DNA of 22,947 nucleotides from a virus: positions 1 through 22,947 of the IMG/VR virus record IMGVR_UViG_3300036829_000217; one strand, 5' to 3'. Position 1 is the stretch's first letter. Each line of letters opens with the position of its first letter. This document shows, one piece after another, positions 9,744-22,516 of the stretch. The notes beneath the pieces were generated by a model. That model was not told where the DNA came from. It worked only from the letters and a program-made list of their open reading frames with translations, and made no database searches. Both the position numbers and the translations under genes were made by a program.

Positions 9744-11033
9744 ATGAACCAGGTTATATCGGCCTCGGCTAGGCACGTACGCCAAGAGCAACAGGCGACT
9801 CGCGCTCTGTCAATCGCAATGGTCGCCGTTGCCGCCTATCCGTCAACCATCTTCACCGGCCGATCTACTTGGTTACCGCCTCTTGGCATTGCAATCTTCC
9901 TGCTGGCTCATTGGCCTTCGGTGGGAGCTACTCGAACCGCTGCAAGCCGCGTAGTTTTCATGGGCTTTTTCTTTCTCATCGCTGCTACCGGCGTAAACAC
10001 AGGGGGCAACTTCGGAGGACAGTACCTTGCCAGCGCCGCTCTCGTTCTAACGGCCATCCCCGTGGCTTCGAAGGCGAATCCTCACCGCATTGCGCGTACC
10101 GTTGTCTTGCTGACGTTGGCCGAGATCGGTTTAGCGCTCGGTCAGTTCTTCTTGCATGTTGAGGTGCCCTGGCATCACCAAGAGCCGCAATGGATGGCCT
10201 ATCTGACGCGCAACGAGCTTCTCGGCGGCGGCAGACCACGCGTTGATGGCACCATGGGGCATCCTCTGCTGCTAGCACTTCTCGTCAACCTGTCGTTCGC
10301 TATCGTCGTTCGGGCGTCCTACGTCCGGCGACGGCGACTCGTGATCATGAGCATTCTGGTTGCCGGCATCCTGATCACCGGAAGTCGCAGCGCTGCGGCC
10401 ATTGCCCTATTGCTTGTTCTCTTCGGAACAGTGCGTCGATTCACCCTCGGGCGGTTGGCAGGGCGCGCCCTACTTGCTGTCGGACTGTTAGTCCTAGCCA
10501 TCAACGCCGGAGTGCTCCAGAGCGGTGTAGTCGACCGGTTCACGGCATCGGGTTCGCTCTCGCACCGGCAGGGAGCCTTCTCCTCGGTCCCGGTGCTCTT
10601 CCACGAACAGTCTTTGTCGTATCTGCTATTCGGTAATGGCTGGGCTGGACCACAAACACTGTTCGATCGAGGGCTTCTACAGACGGACTACTTCCGCGCC
10701 GTCGACAACCAATGGGTCGCCACCATCGTTTCATCCGGGCTTGTCGGTCTCGCTCTGATCTCGTTCGCCATGTATCGAGCGGTTCGTCACGCTGATACCG
10801 ATCAGCGCGTCCTGTGGCTTACGTTCCTAGTCGAGTGGTTTGTCTTCGACGCTCTTTGGTGGACGCCGGGGCTCCTGGCGTGTGGTGTGCTACTCGGGGT
10901 CCGAGCTAGTCGGCCTGAGGTTGCTGAGCATCCGCCTCAGCAAGTGCCTCAGCAAGTTCCCGCTTCGCCTGGATCACCAACAGCGCCTTCGCTTCGAAAT
11001 CGGCGTGCCCCGCCGGAAGCTGCACTGAGTTGA
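9744..11033 (+). CDS. O-antigen ligase/polymerase-like (Wzy/WaaL superfamily) membrane protein
   Basis: This is a 429-residue polytopic membrane protein with about ten hydrophobic segments between residues 20 and 388. Features of the O-antigen ligase/polymerase superfamily are visible in order: RPRVDGTMGHPLLLA (164-178), then ITGSRSAAAIALLL (211-224), SLSHRQGAF (271-279), LLFGNGW (294-300) and DNQWVATIVSSGLVGL (321-336). Such proteins join or polymerise lipid-linked glycans on the outer face of the membrane. In a phage this suggests lysogenic conversion of a surface glycan that blocks the receptor for other phages. A GGAGG site lies 6 bases before the ATG. The last 40 residues are Pro/Gln/Ala-rich and overlap the leftward 56-residue gene tail to tail, so the C-terminus may be an extension without fold. 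Confidence 0.78.
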   Translation: MNQVISASARHVRQEQQATRALSIAMVAVAAYPSTIFTGRSTWLPPLGIAIFLLAHWPSVGATRTAASRVVFMGFFFLIAATGVNTGGNFGGQYLASAALVLTAIPVASKANPHRIARTVVLLTLAEIGLALGQFFLHVEVPWHHQEPQWMAYLTRNELLGGGRPRVDGTMGHPLLLALLVNLSFAIVVRASYVRRRRLVIMSILVAGILITGSRSAAAIALLLVLFGTVRRFTLGRLAGRALLAVGLLVLAINAGVLQSGVVDRFTASGSLSHRQGAFSSVPVLFHEQSLSYLLFGNGWAGPQTLFDRGLLQTDYFRAVDNQWVATIVSSGLVGLALISFAMYRAVRHADTDQRVLWLTFLVEWFVFDALWWTPGLLACGVLLGVRASRPEVAEHPPQQVPQQVPASPGSPTAPSLRNRRAPPEAALS

Positions 11034-11076
11034 GCAGGTCTTCGAACAGAAGCAAAGTCTCACGGGAAAGAGCCAT
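10906..11076 (-). CDS. Small helical protein coupled to the fibre gene
   Basis: This 56-residue protein starts with ATG at 11076, which shares its A with the fibre stop codon (TGATG). It reads MALSRETLLLFEDLLNSVQL, a central ADFEAKALLVIQAKRELAEA and an acidic Ala/Gln tail. It is largely helical, with no membrane segment. Tight translational coupling to the fibre gene suggests a partner of the fibre, such as an assembly or trimerisation helper; I do not know its function. Its 3' 128 bases overlap the end of the convergent O-antigen ligase-like gene. A 12-base tandem repeat (10934-10957) inside the overlap encodes repeated LAEA here. Confidence 0.68.
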   Translation of the reverse strand: MALSRETLLLFEDLLNSVQLPAGHADFEAKALLVIQAKRELAEALAEADAQQPQAD

Positions 11077-12794
11077 CACAGAATTCCCGTCCATGTGTTC
11101 GCTGCTGTAGCAACGTAAATACGCTGATTTGCCACGGTCGGCGTATCTGTCCGGATGAAGATGTCACCAGCGGCAGAACCGGACACCGTGCCTGGTATAC
11201 CTGTACCAGAGAAGATGCGGCCTCCCGCCCCTGCGGAGGTGCCTGGCTGCACGTATCCCGCGCTACTCGACAGACGCGCCAATAATGTGGCCGACCCGTT
11301 GTTTAGAAAGATGTCTTGGCCTTGCGTCGCCAACACGCCAGCTGCGTTGATCCTGACGCGCAAGTTACCCTGGCTGTCGTACCACTCCTGCGTGTTCTTT
11401 GACTGTGCTGCGTGCGCCATGACTCTGATAGCCGTAACGTTGGCCGCATTGGGGTCGACTATCACCTGGCCGTTCGTCGTTGCCACAGAACCCGATGCAA
11501 TCGTTGCACCTGAGATCGTTGTGCCACTAAACGACGTGTAAGTGACAACCGTCCGTGCCGTGCTGTCCAGGATGAAGGTTCCGCCTCCAGCAGGCAGCGT
11601 CACGCCAGCATTTGTGGTGAGTGTCTGCGGCGTTGTCGTGAGCGTGTAAGTACCCGATAACGTGCCGTAGCTCAGCACAGGTTGCTGGACAAACATCATG
11701 GAATTGACGCCGTCACCAGTTCCGCCGTACTTGACCTTGAAGGCTGTTCCTGCTGACCGGCCGACCGATAGCTGCGTCTCACTGTTTGCAGCATCGACCA
11801 CATACAGCCCATATGCGGTGGTGATCGTTCCACCGTTTGCAGACGCGGCCGCGGGCTGCCAGAACCCGTAGTACGTATCGATGGTGCCGAAGGTCGGACC
11901 ACCTGATGAATTGACTGAGGTTTTGAAACCAGCTGCGACGCTGACATGCGAAGTCCCCAGGGCGTTGATTCTCGAGCCCACGCCGAGCAGCGGAGCGTTA
12001 ACGCCCGTCAGTGCAGTGTTGGCACCTTCGATTTGCGCGATGGCCTCAAAACTCGTTGTTGCCTTCGTTTGGGCAAACCCTGTACCGGTGTCCTTCAACC
12101 CGACAAAGGTTGAGAATGCCTCGGCTGAGTCATCCGCTGTGGGGCCGTAGTAGTTCGTGAGCAGAAACCCGCCCTGGGTTGTCTTCGTGATCGGCGCGTT
12201 AGTTCCGCCTGTCGAATCCCCATACTTCTGGTACACCACAAACGGGCCGTAGCCATCAGCCGGACTACCCGTGCCAGCGAAACCGACCGAGTTACCTGCA
12301 TTGCCGAATGTGAACCACTTGCCATAAGTTGGTGAATCCGTGTTGCGATGAATACCTTGCGACGACGATGAGGTCTCCAGGTTCGCGTAACGCGCATCAT
12401 TCGACGCCAGCGACCCTCCGTTAGGCGTCTCTTTCCATGCCGTACCGTTGTATCGACATGTCGTCCAACGGCCCGCTACCGAGACCGTCGCGATTGTTGT
12501 GCCGCCTGATGTAGCGGTGAGCACGCTCGATCCCGAGGTGGCATCGAGGTACAGCTCCACCTCATCGCCCGCGCTAGGACTCGTCGGGAGGGGCTGAGCT
12601 ATGGACCCCGTTGTGCAGTCATAGTGGGCGCTGTGCCATGCGGCCATTGTGTACGAGCCGGTCTTTGCCGCGCCCTGGTCCACGAAACGGTTGCGTCGGG
12701 CGTTCTCGGCGGCCGTGGCGCGACTCTCCTCAGCAGCGACGGATGCCGACACGCCAGTGACACCAGCGGGCTTGCGTGCGTACCCCGTCGTCAC
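11076..12794 (-). CDS. Fibre-like structural protein (head fibre or tail fibre)
   Basis: The product has 572 residues and is very rich in Gly, Ser, Thr and Ala, with many short beta-like repeats, as in trimeric phage fibres. The first 40 residues are Ala/Glu/Arg-rich and probably helical (an anchor or trimerisation stem). A beta domain follows at about 48-125. The C-terminal part has NTQEWYDSQGNLRVRINAAG, a motif often seen in phage fibres, and ends with GDIFIRTDTP and a final NTWTGIL. The start is GTG, overlapping the previous stop in a GTGA. The location is odd for a tail fibre: it comes after the capsid gene and before the connectors, which favours a capsid-attached fibre or a displaced tail fibre. 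No depolymerase or peptidase motif is seen. Confidence 0.7.
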   Translation of the reverse strand: MTTGYARKPAGVTGVSASVAAEESRATAAENARRNRFVDQGAAKTGSYTMAAWHSAHYDCTTGSIAQPLPTSPSAGDEVELYLDATSGSSVLTATSGGTTIATVSVAGRWTTCRYNGTAWKETPNGGSLASNDARYANLETSSSSQGIHRNTDSPTYGKWFTFGNAGNSVGFAGTGSPADGYGPFVVYQKYGDSTGGTNAPITKTTQGGFLLTNYYGPTADDSAEAFSTFVGLKDTGTGFAQTKATTSFEAIAQIEGANTALTGVNAPLLGVGSRINALGTSHVSVAAGFKTSVNSSGGPTFGTIDTYYGFWQPAAASANGGTITTAYGLYVVDAANSETQLSVGRSAGTAFKVKYGGTGDGVNSMMFVQQPVLSYGTLSGTYTLTTTPQTLTTNAGVTLPAGGGTFILDSTARTVVTYTSFSGTTISGATIASGSVATTNGQVIVDPNAANVTAIRVMAHAAQSKNTQEWYDSQGNLRVRINAAGVLATQGQDIFLNNGSATLLARLSSSAGYVQPGTSAGAGGRIFSGTGIPGTVSGSAAGDIFIRTDTPTVANQRIYVATAANTWTGIL

Positions 12795-13614: not shown

Positions 13615-13977
13615 CTACGACCCCTTGATCTGACGCAGGATGTACGGCGTCACCTGGTGGCCCTCGTTCACGATGACCGTTGCCCGAACCGGCTCGGTCT
13701 CGGTGACCTCTCCCGTGTCGTAGTCCAGATACATCGTCTTAGGAGCGGGCTTGCCCAACTCCCAGCCATCGTCCTCGGCGCTGCCCACCGGTTGCTCGGT
13801 GACCTTTTTGAGCGTGCCAGCCTTCGGAGCTTCTGGTTCCTCCGTTGCCTTGGTCTCGGTTCCCTTTGCGGCTTCCTTGGCCTTGACCTCTGCCGCTGGA
13901 TCCTCGGGAAGAGCCTCAGGGTCCGTTGCCTCCGGATCGGTGTATTCCTCTGGCTTCACTTTGGCTGCCTTAGACAT
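13615..13977 (-). CDS. Acidic small protein after the major capsid gene
   Basis: The product has 120 residues, starting at the ATG at 13977 that overlaps the capsid stop (TGATG). A GTG three bases upstream is an equal candidate. The first 60 residues are Glu/Lys/Ala/Pro-rich and low in complexity (DPEATDPEALPEDPAAEVKA), probably disordered. The last 55 contain a more structured MYLDYDTGEVTETEPVRATV and then NEGHQVTPYILRQIKG. Its place suggests a head protein, perhaps decoration or head completion. The function is unknown. Confidence 0.72.
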   Translation of the reverse strand: MSKAAKVKPEEYTDPEATDPEALPEDPAAEVKAKEAAKGTETKATEEPEAPKAGTLKKVTEQPVGSAEDDGWELGKPAPKTMYLDYDTGEVTETEPVRATVIVNEGHQVTPYILRQIKGS

Positions 13978-15245
13978 CACTCAGCCCCCTGGAAAACGAT
14001 TTTGGTCCATGCCTTGGGCCTGTTGACTGCAAGACCGAGGCGGAGCTCTGCGAGCAAGGTCAGGATGTTCTGGCGGAACTTCGACGCGTCCGAGTCCGTC
14101 ACGTAGAGGGCCGCACGCTGACGGTCGTACAGAGTGGCTCCGAGCTTGGCGTCGCCTTCAAGGGCGGTGCCGGCGGCGACTGTGTTCGTGTCGACAACGT
14201 TCATGCCCCAAATGCGGGGAGTGAGGTTGTCCTGCACGTTCGGAGTAACTCGCCAGCGGCCGGTGTCGTCGGTCGACAGTTCGACAGTCTCCCAGTCGTC
14301 CGGGTTCAGGATGACGACGTTGGCGGCATATTCGTTGTGACGAACAAGGGTCTTGCCACGACGGAGCGAGATGATCTTTGCCTCGTCGTTGCCGACGCCC
14401 GTGTTGTACGAGTTGATGCCCGACGTGTTCAGGATGCCGACCATGGTGTTCGACGTACCGTCACCGTTGATGATCTGGTTGTCGACCCGGTAGGCCAGAC
14501 CGTAGAAGAGCCGGGTCTGCACAAGACCGCGGAGCTGGGTGTGGTCGTCGAGAGCCTGGCGGGCGATGTCAGTCCAGTGCGCGACCGTCTTGATCGTGTC
14601 GGTCACCAGTTCCCAGGTGTAGGTCGACTCGGGTTTGGTGCCGCCTTCGGCAGTCTCGGCCGCGGTTCCCTGCGGCGTTGAGCTGTTGTCACGGACGTAG
14701 CCGAACGCGTCGCTGGTGGACGGAACCTGCGTGAGCAAGTCGACCAGACCCAAAGGGCGGTCGGCCACCGCCTGGACGATGCCCGGCGTGCGAGGGATTG
14801 GGTCGAGGATGTTGCTGATGCCACCGACACCCGTGATGAGCGACCGGGTGTCCACGCCTTCAACGACCGTTCCGCCCTGCGAGCCTCCGCTCTGGGTGCG
14901 CCGGCCAACACGAGTGGACCGAAACTCCTCCAGGTCTCCCGACTCCATGAAGTAGTCGACAAGGCCCTTGGGGCCCACACGATTTTCAGCGTCCTGGCCG
15001 CCGCCTCGTTGATCACCTGCATCACCAGGGTTCGTGTCACCTGTCGGGGTGGGGCGGTCGAATCCAACGTCGCTAAGGCGAGAGCGGGCCTCATTGGCCT
15101 TAGCTACCTTGCCGTTGTACTCATCGATCTGGGAGCGAACTTCGTCTGCCTCAGCCACCAGGGCGTCGGCATCGTCGTCGGGGCCGAGATTGTCGATGCG
15201 CTCGAGGATGGCGATACGACGGGCTTCAAGTTCTTTGGGGTCCAT
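13977..15245 (-). CDS. Major capsid protein, HK97 fold
   Basis: This 422-residue protein has the HK97 pattern. An N-terminal charged coiled coil (about 1-58) serves as the delta scaffolding domain, followed by a Gly/Asp/Pro-rich linker (60-95). The capsid core then contains GLVDLLTQVPSTSDAFGYVR, the E-loop-like ESTYTWELVTDTIKTVAHWT, the spine helix region and an A-domain with VVILNPDDWETVELSTDDTG. The C-terminus LAELRLGLAVNRPKAWTKIV is typical. The prohead protease encoded two genes upstream should remove the delta domain, probably near residues 110-130. A 178-base gap with a promoter-like sequence precedes it, which suits its high demand. Confidence 0.95.
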   Translation of the reverse strand: MDPKELEARRIAILERIDNLGPDDDADALVAEADEVRSQIDEYNGKVAKANEARSRLSDVGFDRPTPTGDTNPGDAGDQRGGGQDAENRVGPKGLVDYFMESGDLEEFRSTRVGRRTQSGGSQGGTVVEGVDTRSLITGVGGISNILDPIPRTPGIVQAVADRPLGLVDLLTQVPSTSDAFGYVRDNSSTPQGTAAETAEGGTKPESTYTWELVTDTIKTVAHWTDIARQALDDHTQLRGLVQTRLFYGLAYRVDNQIINGDGTSNTMVGILNTSGINSYNTGVGNDEAKIISLRRGKTLVRHNEYAANVVILNPDDWETVELSTDDTGRWRVTPNVQDNLTPRIWGMNVVDTNTVAAGTALEGDAKLGATLYDRQRAALYVTDSDASKFRQNILTLLAELRLGLAVNRPKAWTKIVFQGAE

Positions 15246-15423: not shown

Positions 15424-16080
15424 CTACCGCACCGCCACGGTCACATCGCCCTGCGCCTGCAACAGCAGATCGAGGTCGTGCCAGCTCATTAGGAATTTTC
15501 CACCCAGAGCCCAATCCGGGCCCCAGCTGTTATAGAACCAGACCGTTTTCATATCGACGTCCAGACCGAACGCCTCGATCTCGTGCCCGCCACGGACTTG
15601 CGAGTGCGACGTCACATGCACTTGACCGGTTCGATCCGGTTTGTCGAATGTGTCTAGCCAGTCGATACCAATGATCACTGGCGTGAGCACCAAAGCTTCA
15701 AGCGCGTGCTGTAGGCCGAAGGCATGGTGGTACGCCGAGATGTACCCGGCTGCCTTGGCTGCCTTGGCCACGGCAAGGCCTGACGATCCTGTGTCGTCCG
15801 GGGGATACGCCCCGGGAATGCCGTCCAGTCGCGTTGCAGCGGAGTACAGCTGGATAGCCGTCTTCTCATCAAAGTTCCACGATGGCTGACGCAGGGGATC
15901 AGTCATCAGTGCGCCGGCCATCGCATTACCCGTGCAATCGCCGAGGTCTTTCTGGTCCCACACTGGCGCGTGACGAACGTGCTTCACCGTTTTGAGGGCG
16001 GGCGCGCGAGCAGCTCTGTACAGCTTGCTGAGGGGATCGTGTTCGACATGGCGACCGAGGCGGAGAACCCGTTCGGTCAT
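15424..16080 (-). CDS. Papain-like (C1 family) cysteine protease
   Basis: This 218-residue protein has the complete papain catalytic set: Gln43 (VWDQKDLGDC), Cys49 (GDCTGNAMAGAL), His166 (VRGGHEIEAFGLD) and Asn184 (FYNSWGPDW), in the family's order and with its NSWG motif. There is no signal peptide and no long propeptide, unlike secreted papains, so it should act in the cell or in the particle. It overlaps the prohead protease stop in an ATGA and precedes the capsid gene. It may process a virion protein, or be packaged and act on the host at infection; neither is shown. Related stand-alone C1-like proteins occur in actinobacteria and their phages. Confidence 0.85.
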   Translation of the reverse strand: MTERVLRLGRHVEHDPLSKLYRAARAPALKTVKHVRHAPVWDQKDLGDCTGNAMAGALMTDPLRQPSWNFDEKTAIQLYSAATRLDGIPGAYPPDDTGSSGLAVAKAAKAAGYISAYHHAFGLQHALEALVLTPVIIGIDWLDTFDKPDRTGQVHVTSHSQVRGGHEIEAFGLDVDMKTVWFYNSWGPDWALGGKFLMSWHDLDLLLQAQGDVTVAVR

Positions 16081-17459
16081 GCGACCTTCACGGAGGCGAG
16101 ACGAAGGGCTGCGGCCTTGCGCTTCAACTCTTGCGCTGAGCGTTCGCCGCCTTCCGGAGGTGGATCCTCCGTACCGAGATGCTCGGGCTTGGTGTCAGCA
16201 ACAGCTTCCTGGCCCTTTCGGGTCTCGCGTGGAGTGTCGGTCGACCGGTCCCCGAGGCCTTCGTCGTCGGTGTCCGCTGGTGTGACCACGAGTTCGAGCT
16301 CGACCTGCGTTGCACTGCCGAGAGTGACGTCCTCACCATCACCGCTGACGACATATGGGAACGAGTAGGTGACGCCGTCATAGTCGTCGTCGACGTAGAT
16401 GGTCGCCACAACGTGATCGGCGAAGGTAGCGACGACGGATACATAGATCCGCTCGGCGTCAGGAAGTTGGTCTTCTGCCCACTCGTCGATAGCCTCTCGC
16501 AGTTCGTCGATGAGCGCTTCATACGACCCTTCGACCGGGTCGATGCTCCGGCGTTCAACTTTGCGCTTGCTCTGGCTTCTGTTCATGATGCCTTCCGCTG
16601 CTCGATTCGACTTATCACCAGGCCAGTGATTTAGCACGTCGTGGTACCACTTCGCCGCCGTAGCCTTGGCTTTCTCCGGCTCTTTGATGTATTTGAGCAA
16701 GTGGTGATACAGAGCGGTCCACGGCTTCGGTTTGCTGAGCCACTTGGCGAGACCCTCACCATGGGTCCAGTAATCGTGTAGCCGATCTGCGTTCGAACCA
16801 GGTACTGCGCGCTTCTCTTGGCCACTACTTGCAGGGATGGGCTCATCAGTGAGGTCGTCGTCAGTCAGCTGGACCGCGTATGCCTCTTCCGGCGATGGGA
16901 CACCGACCTCCTGGTGCGCCAGGTCTGGAGACTTCGCCGGTGTCTTGGTGCCATCTGCCCGCTTCATAAATTCAGCGGCTTTCCGGACTGCGGCGAGCTC
17001 TGCTCCCGGCTGAGAAGCCATGCCGAGCGTGATCTGACTGACCTCCACGAGTTCTGCCTCAGTGATGAGGCTCGAGTCGTTCTTGTCGACGGCACGGCGG
17101 ATGAACCCAACCGACAGCTCCGGCGCTGACCCTGATGCTGCCCGCTTGCGAGCCCGCTGGCCCTCGGGGGTGTCGTCATACGTGCCCTCGATCCACAGGC
17201 CCTTCTCGTCCTCTCGCCAGGTGAAGACCCCGACCGGTTCATCGACGTCGTGCATCCAGAGGTACGCGCGCGTGGTGGGGCCGCCGCCGGCCTCCCACGC
17301 CCCGGGGTTAAAGCGAGTGTTGAAAGAGTCGGTAACGAGGTGCAGATTGGCGTAACCGCTGAAAGTGCCGGGGCCTTCGCCATCGAGACGAGTTTCCAGC
17401 TGGCCAAGAGCGACGCGTCGATATTCAACCTGACCGAGCAATCCTTCAGTAATTGTCAT
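16077..17459 (-). CDS. Prohead (capsid maturation) protease with long C-terminal extension
   Basis: The ATG at 17459 is chosen because GGAGG lies 8 bases upstream; this gives 460 residues. The first 160 are an HK97-type S78 protease: NTRFNPGAW, His70 in YLWMHDVDEPVG, Ser116 in SAPELSVGFI, then AELVEVSQITLGMASQPGAE. It cuts the capsid delta domain and itself during maturation. Beyond this, residues about 223-286 contain RLHDYWTHGEGLAKWLSKP and KWYHDVLNHWPGDKSNR, a module I recognise from actinophage maturation proteases. The following 170 residues are acidic, with a probable coiled coil (ALIDELREAIDEWAEDQL) and a disordered Glu/Pro-rich end, possibly a fused scaffold. It overlaps the cysteine protease gene by four bases. 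Confidence 0.9.
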   Translation of the reverse strand: MTITEGLLGQVEYRRVALGQLETRLDGEGPGTFSGYANLHLVTDSFNTRFNPGAWEAGGGPTTRAYLWMHDVDEPVGVFTWREDEKGLWIEGTYDDTPEGQRARKRAASGSAPELSVGFIRRAVDKNDSSLITEAELVEVSQITLGMASQPGAELAAVRKAAEFMKRADGTKTPAKSPDLAHQEVGVPSPEEAYAVQLTDDDLTDEPIPASSGQEKRAVPGSNADRLHDYWTHGEGLAKWLSKPKPWTALYHHLLKYIKEPEKAKATAAKWYHDVLNHWPGDKSNRAAEGIMNRSQSKRKVERRSIDPVEGSYEALIDELREAIDEWAEDQLPDAERIYVSVVATFADHVVATIYVDDDYDGVTYSFPYVVSGDGEDVTLGSATQVELELVVTPADTDDEGLGDRSTDTPRETRKGQEAVADTKPEHLGTEDPPPEGGERSAQELKRKAAALRLASVKVA

Positions 17460-17557
17460 CGAACGCCCCTCCATGGCCTACTTCTATTCATAGCCTTACA
17501 GGTATACGCCCAGTGTGTGCGGTGCTTCCCAGGGCCAAAGCAAACAACGCATCATTG

Positions 17558-18028
17558 CTACCTCACTGGCTGGACCTCGCCAGCGATGTGTTCGGCGCGA
17601 AAGGCCTCCGCCTGCTCTCGATTTTGAATCGCCTTCGTCGGCGCCGTCTGGACCAGCTCGCCGTCGTAGAACAGCTCCCACCGATCCCGCTGCACACTGT
17701 GCTTCAGCTCGATCGTGTGTTTCTCTTGGCCCCCGGGTTGATCTTCCGAGCCATACAGGATCGTCGGCTTCGGTGCCTGCGGGCCGATGAGCTTGCGAGC
17801 CATGAGTGCCTGCCCAGTGAGGTGCTCATCGAACACCCATCGATCCCGCCCGTCTTCAGTCAACGGGTTGTCCTTGTCACGGCGGTAGGCGTAGCAGCCA
17901 GACTCAACAGAATCAGCCGGGCCGAGGAACACGACATCATCGCCGTTGTCGACGTAACCGTCGTCGCCTCCTCGTCCGTATTGATCGTATGGGCCACCGA
18001 TCAATAGAACTTTCCGTAGCTTCGTCAT
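17558..18028 (-). CDS. Small phage protein with IGGPYD start, unknown function
   Basis: The ATG at 18028 overlaps the HNH stop in an ATGA, giving 156 residues. The N-terminus MTKLRKVLLIGGPYDQYGRG is a strand-loop form seen in many short actinophage head-region proteins. Later it has SGCYAYRRDKDN, then VFDEHLTGQALMARKL, IELKHSVQRDRWELFYDGEL and a charged helical end. No catalytic motif is evident. The 98-base gap after it contains the ribosome-binding site of the prohead protease but no clear promoter. Confidence 0.7.
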   Translation of the reverse strand: MTKLRKVLLIGGPYDQYGRGGDDGYVDNGDDVVFLGPADSVESGCYAYRRDKDNPLTEDGRDRWVFDEHLTGQALMARKLIGPQAPKPTILYGSEDQPGGQEKHTIELKHSVQRDRWELFYDGELVQTAPTKAIQNREQAEAFRAEHIAGEVQPVR

Positions 18029-18624
18029 GCGACGTGTCTCCACGTTTCTCGCCGGACAATTTTCGATGCTGTCTTGTGATCCACTCCGAAGTGACGCGCA
18101 ATTGCACGCAAGCTCACGGATCCCCCGGCATGCATTTGGCGCAACTCTTTCACTCGCTCCTCATCCAGCCTTGCGCTGCCGACCTTGGAACCCACGACGT
18201 AATGCGCCCGGTTTTTCGCGTTCATATCGTCGACGTTCCCCTGATAGCTCCCCAGCTCCAGATGCGACGGCCTCACGCAGGCTGGGTTATCGCAACGGTG
18301 CATAACCAGCGCATACTTAGGCAGCAAAATGCCGTGCGCTAGTTCATAAGACACCCGGTGCGCCCGGAGGGTGGCACCCCTCCCATGGATCAGCCCGTAC
18401 CCGAACTCTGTTTGTTCTCCGTTCCATTCCCAGCACCGCCCTAACTCAGGAACGTGGGTTGGAACTGACCCGGCCTTATCGACCTTCGCCCACAACCGGA
18501 TCTCAATGGGAACAGAACGAGCTACGACCGAGCAGGGTCGACATCGCTTCGCCGTGTAACTGTCCAGCTTTTTCCCGCAGTCGAAGCAAGCGCTTGTTTT
18601 CCAGCTAGCGTTATTCCTTGTCAT
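18025..18624 (-). CDS. HNH endonuclease with zinc-ribbon and helix-turn-helix
   Basis: The frame stays open upstream to a TTG at 18705 that would overlap the previous stop, but the ATG at 18624 follows GGAGG (at short spacing) and the extra residues look non-coding, so 199 residues are preferred. An N-terminal CFDCGK...CRPC pair (about residues 13-31) looks like a zinc ribbon. The core RAHRVSYELAHG, then VMHRCDNPACVRPSHLELG and NVDDMNAKNR, is the HNH_3 homing endonuclease pattern. The C-terminus DEERVKELRQMHAGGSVSLR and IARHFGVDHKTASKIVR is a helix-turn-helix for DNA binding. It is probably a free-standing homing endonuclease inserted in the head module; some HNH proteins near portal genes instead assist packaging. 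Confidence 0.85.
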   Translation of the reverse strand: MTRNNASWKTSACFDCGKKLDSYTAKRCRPCSVVARSVPIEIRLWAKVDKAGSVPTHVPELGRCWEWNGEQTEFGYGLIHGRGATLRAHRVSYELAHGILLPKYALVMHRCDNPACVRPSHLELGSYQGNVDDMNAKNRAHYVVGSKVGSARLDEERVKELRQMHAGGSVSLRAIARHFGVDHKTASKIVRRETWRHVA

Positions 18625-18701
18625 CACCCTCCAACGGTGGTGGCCAAGCCGGGGGCTGTTGAAGCAGTTGCCCGGCCTTTTCTGTCTCACCGCGACGTTA
18701 G

Positions 18702-19241
18702 TCAAGCTTCAAGCTTCTCCACGACGAACGGCGCCCTGACGCCCTTGTTGATGTGCTCAGAGGCAGCGAGCGCCTGGCGGATACGCTCCTCCGGCTTATG
18801 ACTCGTGAGGACATGCAGAGCGCCCTTGGCTACTTCATCACCGCAGCCAATGGCGTCATATCCGTCTGCTGACTCTCCAACTTGGTAGTCCGAGTCGATG
18901 CGAAAAAGTCGGCCCCGGTACCCGACCAAGAACAGGCCACCGCTCTCGACAGAGTCGTGGACCTTCATCAAGCCGTTATCTCGGAAACACTGACGAACGG
19001 CGTCAACGAAGTCACAGACCATGTACTCCTCGACGCTCTGACTTCCGCGCTGTTCAGACACTATGAGCTTGTGGCGAAGAAGCTGACCCTGGCGAACTGA
19101 TCCAGAGTTGCCGAAAATGAAGTCACTGTCGCTCCACACCTTTGCCTCGACATAGGTCATCTGTGTGTAGTGCGTGGAAGCGCACGAATCTGCGCCGATC
19201 CACACAACTCCGTCCTCGGTAAGGCCCGCAACGCAAGTCAC
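18702..19241 (-). CDS. Proteasome beta/HslV-like Ntn hydrolase
   Basis: The GTG at 19241 overlaps the portal stop in a GTGA and encodes MTCVAGLTEDGVVWIGADS. Removal of Met leaves Thr1; Asp17 (GADS) and Lys33 (VEAKVW) then fall at exactly the catalytic positions of proteasome beta and HslV subunits. FIFGNSGSVRQGQLLRH matches the substrate-loop region after Lys33, and YDAIGCGDEVAKGAL matches the HslV IGSGG region. The product is 179 residues, close to HslV length. An upstream in-frame start (19280) would bury the Thr. No ATPase partner is encoded nearby. Placed between portal and capsid protease genes, it may process head proteins, or act as a host-directed peptidase; both are inference. Confidence 0.85.
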   Translation of the reverse strand: MTCVAGLTEDGVVWIGADSCASTHYTQMTYVEAKVWSDSDFIFGNSGSVRQGQLLRHKLIVSEQRGSQSVEEYMVCDFVDAVRQCFRDNGLMKVHDSVESGGLFLVGYRGRLFRIDSDYQVGESADGYDAIGCGDEVAKGALHVLTSHKPEERIRQALAASEHINKGVRAPFVVEKLEA

Positions 19242-21454
19242 GCTGGATCCTCCGAGTGGTAGAGCAGGACGCACCTGCACCCTATGGTTTCTTCGGGTAA
19301 TCCTGCCGGATCACCGGGAAATAGCAGACCATTCGCGAACCGGTCTCGCATCGGCACGGAGACTCCACGGAGTTTCTCGTGAGTAGGGCGAACGCGGTCA
19401 TCTTTCGCCGGAAGCCAGGACTTTGACTTCACAAAGTTCGACTCGCTGGCAGTCAGGAACGATGCGGAGTTATGACCGCTGACCACCTCAGTACGTGCCA
19501 CAAGCTCGGCTCGCCAGGTCTCGAGGTCGGTGAAGCGCTCCTTGAGTCTCTCGGCGAGTTGAGCCGTCCCCTCGCCCTCTTCCACGCCTTCCTTCAGCAC
19601 TTCCTCAGAAATGGCGTCATAAGTGGTCTGAGTGATCTGGCCAGCGAGCACATCAAGACGGTTCTGCATCTCCGTTGTGACGCGCTGAAGGAAGGAGTCG
19701 GTCAGCTCCACGCCCATCGCATCGGCCGTCGAAGATGCCGCTGAGGTCCAGAGGTCATCGAAGCGGCCGATCAACGTCTTCACGGTCTCTTTGACCCAGA
19801 AGACGACGTTGAACAGCGCCGTGGGGTCGAGCTTTGCTCGGTGCTCCGGGGAACCCTGGGCCTTCCGTTGAGCCTTCTCTAGGTTCCGCAACGTCATGGT
19901 GCGCTGCTTGCCGGCCAACTCCACGATGCCCCGAGCGAGCAACTTCTCGTGTCGGTCGTAGGCCCGCTGGACAGCTGCGGGATCGATGGTGATGTTCGGT
20001 GCCGGCTTGTCCGAAGTGAGGACATTCGCTAGCTCGTTAGCAACGTCGGATACCGTGATCGTCTTGGCGGGCAGTTCGAAGATGCCCCGCTGTGCATTGG
20101 TTGGCAGTGGTGCAGGGGCATTGGGATCTGCCGGTGGCGCCGCCACGGACACCTGCGGTGGCGCGTACTGCACTTTCACCCACTCCCGGTACTGACTCAG
20201 CGTCATGTTGTCGCGCTCGTCGCCGAACACCTCAAGATTCACCTTGGCGCGCGCTTCAGCCATCGTGGTGATGTCGGCTTCGTGGGCCTTAATCGTCCGA
20301 TCGTGGAGGCCGTCGATGTTCTCTTGAAGCGCCTGGACCGTGCGCACGTCGAACACTGCACTTAGGGCTACGTCGGGGAACACCTGCCGGTCGATCTCGG
20401 CCTCGACGAGCTCCTTCTTGCCGATCAACAGCCCTGACCACAAGCGGCTCCACGCGGCGTCCTGGTTGTTGAACGTCGACTGGCCGAAGATCAGGTCGAT
20501 CGGAACGCCGAGGGCCAACGCGATGTCCTGGCCGTTGACGCGGTGCGACTCCAGGTAGGACATTTCGGCAGGCGTCAGGCCGATACGGTCGAAGCCTGGT
20601 TTGTCGTCGTCACCGTAAGTGAAAAGAATGCGACCGGCGTTGCGAGCGCCACCGTTCTCGGCTTCCGTCTTGGCCTTGATCTTCTCTGCTTCTTCACGAC
20701 TGCGCTTGCCGAGGCGCATGACGCCGCTGGGACGGGCACCGTTGTCCAACTCACCGAGCTGCCACTCGCGGGCCTTGCGATCCAGCCCGGCCGCCATGCG
20801 AGCAGCTGCACCCGGCGGCATCGGTGCCCACGGCAGCTCGAAGTGCGGATAGCGCACCCACAGCACCTCGCTGGGCAGCAGGTCGACCTCGCCCCATCGG
20901 GTATACGCCCTGTAGCCCAGCAGCCGAGGAGCGATCTTCTCCCGGCTGGTCAACGGCCGCGGGTTGCCATCCTGGTCTAGTGCCCTGTTGGCGAAGACGG
21001 GAACGACCCGGTCCATGATGACGACGAAATCCCCAGGATCACCTTCGCCCGTCGGACCGCGGTCCATATAGACGAACCCTTCGCCCTTCATCTCAAGGCG
21101 GGCCCACATAATCCGCTTCATGGCCACGGCGTTGTCCGTGTCGGAGGAAGCCTTGTTGAACAGGTTGGCTACGGGGTCATCCTCGACGTACTCCTCGCCG
21201 CCGTCGGTTGTCTTCTTGAGCACGAGGTCACGGCCGGCCAGTTCCGTGGCGATTAGGTCGACGCAGCGGTAGATGACCTCACTGGCCTCGAACGCGTTGA
21301 GTTCGGCTGCGGGGTCGAACCCGAGGCGTGCATCACCGGCAAGGTTGATGTGATCAAGACCGATCGACCCCACGCTCTCAGTGAAGAACGTCGAGCGAGT
21401 TTCTGTCTTTGGGCTACGCCGGGACAGGCCCGGAAGCGTGAGGCGTACCGCCAT
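19238..21454 (-). CDS. Portal protein fused to MuF-like minor head protein
   Basis: The product has 738 residues, far longer than a usual portal (about 400-500). Residues about 30-430 are an HK97-type portal: VIYRCVDLIATELAGRDLVL, then EGFVYMDRG, VLWVRYPHFELPWAPMPPG, RVNGQDIALALGVPIDLIFG and NNQDAAWSRLW. A Pro/Ala linker follows (about 431-455), then a helical part. The C-terminus (about 640-735) is MuF-like: RTEVVSGHNSAS, KDDRVRPTHEKLRGVSVPMR and IGCRCVLLYH. The portal forms the DNA gate of the head; MuF proteins are minor head parts ejected or bound at the portal. The fusion is a known variant. A short coupled ORF may precede it (TGATG). Confidence 0.94.
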   Translation of the reverse strand: MAVRLTLPGLSRRSPKTETRSTFFTESVGSIGLDHINLAGDARLGFDPAAELNAFEASEVIYRCVDLIATELAGRDLVLKKTTDGGEEYVEDDPVANLFNKASSDTDNAVAMKRIMWARLEMKGEGFVYMDRGPTGEGDPGDFVVIMDRVVPVFANRALDQDGNPRPLTSREKIAPRLLGYRAYTRWGEVDLLPSEVLWVRYPHFELPWAPMPPGAAARMAAGLDRKAREWQLGELDNGARPSGVMRLGKRSREEAEKIKAKTEAENGGARNAGRILFTYGDDDKPGFDRIGLTPAEMSYLESHRVNGQDIALALGVPIDLIFGQSTFNNQDAAWSRLWSGLLIGKKELVEAEIDRQVFPDVALSAVFDVRTVQALQENIDGLHDRTIKAHEADITTMAEARAKVNLEVFGDERDNMTLSQYREWVKVQYAPPQVSVAAPPADPNAPAPLPTNAQRGIFELPAKTITVSDVANELANVLTSDKPAPNITIDPAAVQRAYDRHEKLLARGIVELAGKQRTMTLRNLEKAQRKAQGSPEHRAKLDPTALFNVVFWVKETVKTLIGRFDDLWTSAASSTADAMGVELTDSFLQRVTTEMQNRLDVLAGQITQTTYDAISEEVLKEGVEEGEGTAQLAERLKERFTDLETWRAELVARTEVVSGHNSASFLTASESNFVKSKSWLPAKDDRVRPTHEKLRGVSVPMRDRFANGLLFPGDPAGLPEETIGCRCVLLYHSEDPA

Positions 21455-21679: not shown

Positions 21680-22516
21680 ATGAGTCGTGATGGCGTTCTC
21701 GACGCGGCCTTGCGATATGCCGCACACGGTTGGCCTGTGATTCTACTTGGCTCCAGGTCAAAGATGCCTCGGCTCCCGAAGAGCAAGGGTGGAAACGGAC
21801 TCTACGATGCAACGACCGATGACGGCCAGATCCAGGCGTGGCTCCAGAAGCATCCCAACGCGAACATTGGCCTGCGTAGCGGAGTGGCTTTCGACGTGGT
21901 CGACCTTGATGGCCTGCGAGCAACTGAGGCGCTTGAGACTGCGCGGCAAGGTCGGGACAAGCTGCGGGGACCCATGGTCCAGACCCCTCATGGTTGGCAC
22001 GTGCTGGTTCAACCCACCGGAGTCGGCAACCGTGTCGGCGTTCTTCCCGGCGTCGACTTCCGCGGGGCGAACGGCTACGTCGTCGCTCCACCCAGCATCG
22101 TCGACGCACCGGACGTGCCTTTCGACCGCCGACAGTACAAGTGGTTCAACCCCACCGATGCCATTGTCCCGGCGCCGTCCTGGCTCCTTGATCTGCTCCA
22201 ACGCACACGAGAGCTACCAGTAAGGGCCGCTTACTTACCAGTAGGTCCCAGGACCACGGCCTATGGACGTGCAGCTCTACGCCGGGAGATCGAGTCGCTG
22301 TCCCGTGCGCGACTCGGCACCCGAAACGACCACCTCAACCGCAGTGCATTTGCCTTGGGTCAGCTCGTCGGCTCCGGCGTGCTGGAGGAGGAGCAGATCG
22401 TCACCGCCCTGACGGAGACGGGACTTGCGCTGGGGCTAGAGGAGCGGGAATGCGAGCGCACGATCGCAAGCGGCTTGAATGCTGGGATGGAAGCCCCTCG
22501 ATCGTTGACGCTCTAG
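21680..22516 (+). CDS. Primase-polymerase (prim-pol, AEP-type) protein
   Basis: This 278-residue protein begins LDAALRYAAHGWPVILLGSR, the hallmark N-terminus of bifunctional DNA primase/polymerase domains of phages and plasmids. The metal-binding acids are in FDVVDLDG (Asp72, Asp75, Asp77) and the catalytic His in TPHGWHVLV (His104 or His107). GANGYVVAPPSIVD (about 135-148) is also typical. The last 70 residues (LGTRNDHLNRSAFALGQLVG, then ECERTIASGLNAGM) form a primase C-terminal (PriCT-like) helical domain. No helicase domain is fused, so a separate helicase is needed, perhaps beyond the right edge. It is transcribed away from the late operon, probably early. Confidence 0.88.
   Translation: MSRDGVLDAALRYAAHGWPVILLGSRSKMPRLPKSKGGNGLYDATTDDGQIQAWLQKHPNANIGLRSGVAFDVVDLDGLRATEALETARQGRDKLRGPMVQTPHGWHVLVQPTGVGNRVGVLPGVDFRGANGYVVAPPSIVDAPDVPFDRRQYKWFNPTDAIVPAPSWLLDLLQRTRELPVRAAYLPVGPRTTAYGRAALRREIESLSRARLGTRNDHLNRSAFALGQLVGSGVLEEEQIVTALTETGLALGLEERECERTIASGLNAGMEAPRSLTL

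Follow-up and report, generated by a model that had tools for sequence, protein, structure and literature searches.

Why would a phage encode three unrelated proteases in a single capsid module, although one prohead protease is normally enough? This question is raised by the viral record IMGVR_UViG_3300036829_000217, a complete IMG/VR record of 22,947 bp that was analyzed over its whole length (the window). Its minus (late) strand carries an S78 serine protease (16077-17474), a papain-fold cysteine peptidase (CysP; 15424-16080), and a proteasome-like peptidase of the N-terminal nucleophile (Ntn) type (18702-19241). A preliminary description had placed all three, partly overlapping, in the same module, and they are indeed present, with catalytic sets that are intact by sequence and, for CysP and Ntn, also by model. 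The overlaps comprise 4 nt each: S78 and CysP overlap directly (at ATGA), and Ntn overlaps with the portal gene (at GTGA) and with the gene of an HNH endonuclease (at TTGA; 18025-18705). The latter and a 161-aa open reading frame (ORF; 17558-18043), both absent from the preliminary description, lie between Ntn and S78. Such 4-nt overlaps are the pattern of a coupled late operon, suggesting that the genes are co-expressed late in infection. Conserved motifs and confident models reject chance or frameshifted ORFs as the source of the peptidases.

The reading favored here, to which about an even chance is given, is that of one ordinary prohead protease (S78), a recurrent, head-linked accessory peptidase (Ntn), and a displaced papain-like peptidase (CysP).

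Distribution of the peptidases and linkage of Ntn to head genes

The trio does not represent a conserved unit, as it was absent from all records with CysP or Ntn genes examined outside the window. No Ntn gene was found among 49 viral carriers of CysP (50 records examined) or in 78 further CysP loci recovered by a profile scan, and no full-length homolog of CysP was found in 50 records with an Ntn gene, where weak partial matches occurred in two records. The absence of the trio from other loci lends no support to the multi-step capsid maturation envisaged in the preliminary description, and the coincidence of three proteases carries little general weight in itself. The opposite expectation, a random distribution of unlinked genes, holds for the trio but fails for Ntn, which is non-randomly associated with head genes; to that extent, the preliminary description gains support.

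Homologs of Ntn were collected with a six-row profile, which yielded 93 matches in bacterial genomes and 219 confirmed stretches in viruses; 80 of the latter were retrieved. Among the 50 records with an Ntn gene mentioned above, 24 encode an S78 protease and 27 a capsid protein of family PF05065. Because short contigs inflate proximity, records of at least 25 kb that contain S78 were counted separately; here, 11 of 15 have Ntn no more than 5 kb from S78 and in the same orientation, whereas random placement and strand would predict 1.5 (standard deviation, 1.1). When terminase (terL), portal, S78, and major capsid protein (MCP) genes were identified with our own profiles, 35 of 58 informative viral Ntn loci (<85% identity) were accompanied by such a gene at a distance of up to 4 kb and in the same orientation; the profiles were seeded with genes of the window and of Streptomyces phage mu1/6 and miss distant terminases and portals, which makes this head linkage a lower bound. 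When loci from all sources are pooled, the head gene nearest to Ntn (up to 4 kb away) is located on the same strand in 45 cases and on the opposite strand in 1 (p = 1.3e-12, with loci of <85% identity treated as independent despite their shared ancestry, as for all p-values given here). Random placement as the cause of the proximity is rejected by both the excess of nearby S78 genes and the strand ratio.

The linkage is characteristic of records of up to 65 kb (34 of 45, vs 1 of 13 among larger ones; Fisher's test, 1.5e-5), and several loci have Ntn directly between portal and S78. In the phylogeny of Ntn (FastTree, with many weak branches), the head label changes 24 times, indicating that head linkage is not the property of one clade. 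The linkage extends over several bacterial phyla, and head-linked Ntn genes are present also in genome loci representing prophages of Pelosinus, Paenibacillus, Cytobacillus, Nitratireductor, Pseudorhodoferax, and Streptomyces sp. SID3212. The neighborhoods of Ntn and CysP differ strongly: head genes are found at 35 and lysis genes at 1 of 68 Ntn loci, vs 5 and 17, respectively, of 43 CysP loci (Fisher's test, 2e-9; the lysis counts are lower bounds). This contrast splits the trio into a head-linked accessory, Ntn, and a peptidase that is not head-linked, CysP.

Ntn occurs alongside other head proteases and thus would not seem to replace them. A general replacement of S78 by Ntn is not supported, since four heads that apparently lack S78 (loci L200, L230, L128, and L219) encode ClpP-like proteases between portal and MCP, as read by eye from the sequence; this check for Ntn as sole protease covered the loci readable for S78 or ClpP-like proteases, outside of which L227 and L275 fall. 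In loci L228, L246, L266, L118, and L122, S78 and MCP share one reading frame, and these protease-capsid fusions mostly lie directly beside Ntn. Many chromosomes of Frankia and Actinoplanes (loci among L130-L194) carry an Ntn gene without phage head genes detected in the analyzed flanks, and the gene probably has a chromosomal role besides the phage one.

Identity and possible role of the Ntn peptidase

The Ntn protein (179 aa) matches phrog_1040 ("peptidase HslV family"; E = 2e-16), whereas a Pfam search gave no match and a PDB sequence search missed the family. Its structural model (pLDDT 95) is closest to BPH (5ovt/5ovs; Z = 21.7) and HslV (1e94; Z = 20.2), with 161-170 residues aligned. 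Residue 2 of the model aligns with chain residue 1 of the matched structures, which identifies the Thr after the start codon as Thr1. The GTG start at 19241 is part of the GTGA shared with the portal stop and is preceded by GGAGGA. Position 1 is occupied by Thr in 165 and by Ser in 4 of 169 family members, all of which have Asp17 and Lys33, and the start codon immediately precedes residue 1 in nearly all cases, suggesting that removal of Met alone would expose the nucleophile. With T1, D17, K33, and the predicted Ntn fold, the protein has the features of a proteasome-like Ntn hydrolase and would be expected to be catalytically active.

The resemblance to BPH and HslV comprises the predicted fold and the register of Thr1, but the sequences are only 17-23% identical, and no HslU-like ATPase was noticed among the ORFs of the window, the record being a fragment. 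An assignment to HslV proper is rejected by the phylogeny, where Escherichia coli HslV is set off from the entire Ntn family by a branch of 3.4. Other counterparts are the phage-borne proteasome homologs PPH and AAH (KEGG OC.661151 for AAH) described by Fuchs et al. in 2021 (PMC8665760). Like these, the Ntn protein is a compact subunit of ~180 aa with T1/D17/K33 and no propeptide; PPH has a length of about 140 aa, and the relatives of the window protein come mainly from Frankia, Actinoplanes, Streptomyces, and Rhizobium, a distribution also described for AAH. Based on its length and the distribution of its relatives, it is probably an AAH. Fuchs et al. obtained no functional clue from the genomic context and reported no Actinobacteria-specific phage carrying AAH (PMC8665760). 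Here, by contrast, the gene belongs to the head modules of both an apparent actinophage and a Streptomyces prophage (L171), and it is head-linked in many phages. A literature search, which covered few subscription journals, found no later paper on these homologs.

The linkage suggests that phage packaging and head modules repeatedly include Ntn as an accessory gene. By analogy with its structural neighbors BPH and HslV, the subunit probably forms rings, and its target in late infection would be a head-assembly protein or the cleavage products thereof. Possible tasks include the clearing of scaffold or delta-domain peptides and the trimming of a portal, MuF, or packaging component. A more far-reaching proposal, which is rather unlikely, holds that in a broad range of mid-sized tailed phages, the proteasome homolog serves specifically in head assembly or packaging and would act on proheads, beside the prohead protease, as a small self-compartmentalized peptidase or a connectase-like ligase. 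The linkage provides the first genomic lead for an enzyme described without a functional clue, and because it is reproducible, strand-specific, and present in prophages of cultivable bacteria, the function of Ntn becomes directly testable. Were Ntn to act on proheads, one of the best-studied assembly pathways in virology would gain a second step of proteolysis or ligation with a different mechanism; otherwise, Ntn would be a candidate for a late counter-defense enzyme carried along with head genes.

In two loci (L221:7415-8573 and L186:7717-9342), Ntn genes form tandem pairs in which both copies have T1, D17, and K33; judging from these residues, the pairs may form mixed rings of two active subunits. 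Two neighboring genes of Aeromonas phage 2L372X (L112) are annotated as HslV family.

The S78 protease, CysP, and the mu1/6-type head

The S78 protein (465 aa) is a clear member of PF04586 (44.4 bits vs a curated cut-off of 21; E = 2.5e-11). The regions around the catalytic His (MHD) and Ser (ELSVGF) are conserved with gp35 of mu1/6, with which the core shares 47% identity over 169 aa, and the gene has the location typical of an S78 prohead protease, with the portal on one side and the MCP on the other. The C-terminal extension of more than 250 aa (16077-16930, minus strand) includes a phrog_6439 domain (residues 216-294), which is present also in other head proteins.

Portal, S78, and MCP of the window are most similar to those of the Streptomyces phages mu1/6 (NC_007967) and OnionKnight (OQ938575). 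In both phages, the order is terL, portal, small ORF(s), S78, and MCP, and the portal with its MuF-like C-terminus, the small ORF(s), S78, and the HK97-type MCP are alignable with the window and arranged in the same way. They differ from the window in the absence of the Ntn peptidase, the HNH endonuclease, and the papain-like gene, and their S78 proteins (217-289 aa) lack the long extension. The head modules of mu1/6 and OnionKnight contain S78 and no second recognized peptidase, so that a single S78 appears sufficient for this head type, provided that no peptidase went unrecognized in these modules. In the closest heads, the assumption of the preliminary description that one prohead protease is normally enough is thereby borne out. 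The locus would represent a mu1/6-type HK97-fold head module of the usual composition (portal/MuF, small protein, S78, MCP), with S78 as its prohead protease and two additions: Ntn and HNH, which follow the portal, and the papain-like gene, which follows S78.

CysP (218 aa) matches phrog_16701 ("peptidase"; E = 3.8e-51) and remains below the threshold with Pfam C1 (E = 0.062). The motifs QxxLGxCTGNA (QKDLGDCTGNA in the window), GGHE, and NSWG are kept, with few exceptions, in 43 non-redundant relatives, and Cys49 and His166 are invariant in a 30-row alignment. The AlphaFold model (pLDDT 88) matches xylellain (3ois; Z = 21.7, 206 residues, 2.9 Å) and many cathepsins (Z of about 17), pointing to a papain fold with a Cys-His-Asn triad in the canonical order and to a putative papain-like (C1A) peptidase of the phrog_16701 family. 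Although the protein is 51.6% identical to gp26 of Arthrobacter phage Mufasa8 and related to the cysteine proteases of other actinophages, its gene lies between S78 and MCP and not in a lysis cassette. In Mufasa8, the homolog is directly downstream of lysin A, and the Gordonia phages Lilbeanie, Morgana, GMA2, and Mareelih have annotated cassettes of lysin A, CysP, and holin; other annotated relatives are located in accessory and tRNA regions and in early regions of Streptomyces and Mycobacterium phages.

The same picture emerges from 43 non-redundant CysP loci in IMG/VR, of which 17 have a lysin or holin relative, and 5 a head gene, in the same orientation and no more than 4 kb away. Only 9 of the 49 viral CysP carriers have S78 at all, at a distance of 5.2 to 19.9 kb. 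In the 78 further loci, a head gene is found within 4 kb on the same strand in 5, among which two near-identical loci have CysP right beside terL. The placement of CysP in the window, between S78 and MCP and not adjacent to a lysin or holin as in its relatives, is exceptional, and suggests that a gene from a family of lysis cassettes and accessory regions was inserted there. CysP probably takes no part in capsid maturation. The mu1/6-type head and the actinophage-type CysP suggest a probable actinobacterial host.

Alternative explanations and neighboring genes

Linkage does not in itself demonstrate a function, and several observations weigh against a role of Ntn in the head. Ntn is rarely linked to head genes in records of more than 65 kb (1 of 13) and is located among nucleotide-metabolism genes in large isolated phages, which implies that it can work without such co-location. 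Its position inside the module varies (upstream of terL, between terL and portal, between portal and S78, or beside the S78-MCP fusions), HNH genes within 2 kb of Ntn in 13 of 82 loci raise the possibility that mobility brought it there, and mu1/6-type heads manage without it. In the case of CysP, the overlap with S78 leaves room for some role in the head. The chief rival explanation, possible though less likely, is that Ntn and the papain-like peptidase are morons that were brought in by HNH-assisted or illegitimate recombination and act on host or defense proteins, in which case their proximity to head genes would be uninformative about capsids. Such cargo would fit the HNH gene adjoining Ntn in the window and near its homologs, the location of Ntn in middle-gene regions of large phages, the scattered contexts of CysP, which include tRNA arrays and early regions, and the intact mu1/6 module without either gene, but is opposed by the strand concordance of 45:1 and the repeated occurrence of Ntn, across many lineages, within or beside terL-portal-S78-MCP and not beside lysis genes (1 of 68).

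A cooperation of all three peptidases on capsid, scaffold, and portal of this phage is highly improbable. Although three intact catalytic sets, their encoding in one operon with 4-nt overlaps, and the linkage of Ntn and S78 in many phages are consistent with it, the trio occurs in no other record examined, CysP is 5-20 kb away from S78 where both are present, and S78 stands alone in mu1/6 and OnionKnight, whose capsids are of the same type. It is also improbable that one or both of the extra enzymes are non-proteolytic, with Ntn acting as an amidase or as a connectase-like transpeptidase for the joining of head proteins, and CysP as a hydrolase of cell-wall or other amides. In favor of this, connectase, a member of the proteasome-like clan, ligates proteins (PMC8665760), peptidoglycan amidases are found among papain-like folds (PMC10318531), and relatives of CysP are encoded beside lysins; however, the model of Ntn has its nearest matches in BPH and HslV, both peptidases, and its secondary structure appears to lack a large insertion like the two-helix element of connectase.

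In the late direction, the genes of the window are arranged in the order portal/MuF, Ntn, HNH, 161-aa ORF, S78, CysP, and MCP. The portal protein, which is fused to a MuF-like domain (738 aa; 19238-21454, minus strand; PF04860, E = 2.2e-38; PF04233, E = 4.2e-15), shares 31% identity with gp33 of mu1/6 and gp3 of OnionKnight (BLAST), and the HK97-fold MCP (422 aa; 13977-15245, minus strand; PF05065, E = 1.7e-34) shares 35-37% with gp8 of OnionKnight and gp36 of mu1/6. The HNH endonuclease is of the homing type, with a helix-turn-helix domain (PF13392, E = 2.1e-8; phrog_59, E = 1.1e-29) and a match to zf-His_Me_endon under the cut-off; like the 161-aa ORF, it is encoded on the minus strand. This ORF belongs to no family but occupies the same place as gp34 of mu1/6 and gp5 of OnionKnight, which it resembles, by eye only, in a GGPYD..Y.YR motif; BLAST against gp34 gave no significant match. 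Nucleotide matches of the window to phages, close portal relatives in an IMG/VR scan, and matches in an NCBIfam search were not found, and scans for capsid and S78 recovered distant or fragmentary relatives only.

A plus-strand gene (9744-11033) encodes a membrane protein resembling O-antigen ligases or polymerases (Wzy_C, E = 2.8e-5, under the curated cut-off). It sits in an island of ~5 kb between capsid genes on one side and head-tail genes on the other, an insertion that mu1/6 does not have, and is possibly surface-modifying cargo. Adjoining the island, but still within the head region, is the gene of a fiber-like protein of 572 aa (11076-12794, minus strand) without a match in Pfam or NCBIfam. 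Upstream of the portal gene, a divergent plus-strand gene (21680-22516) encodes a protein with a Prim-Pol domain (PF09250, E = 1.9e-29).

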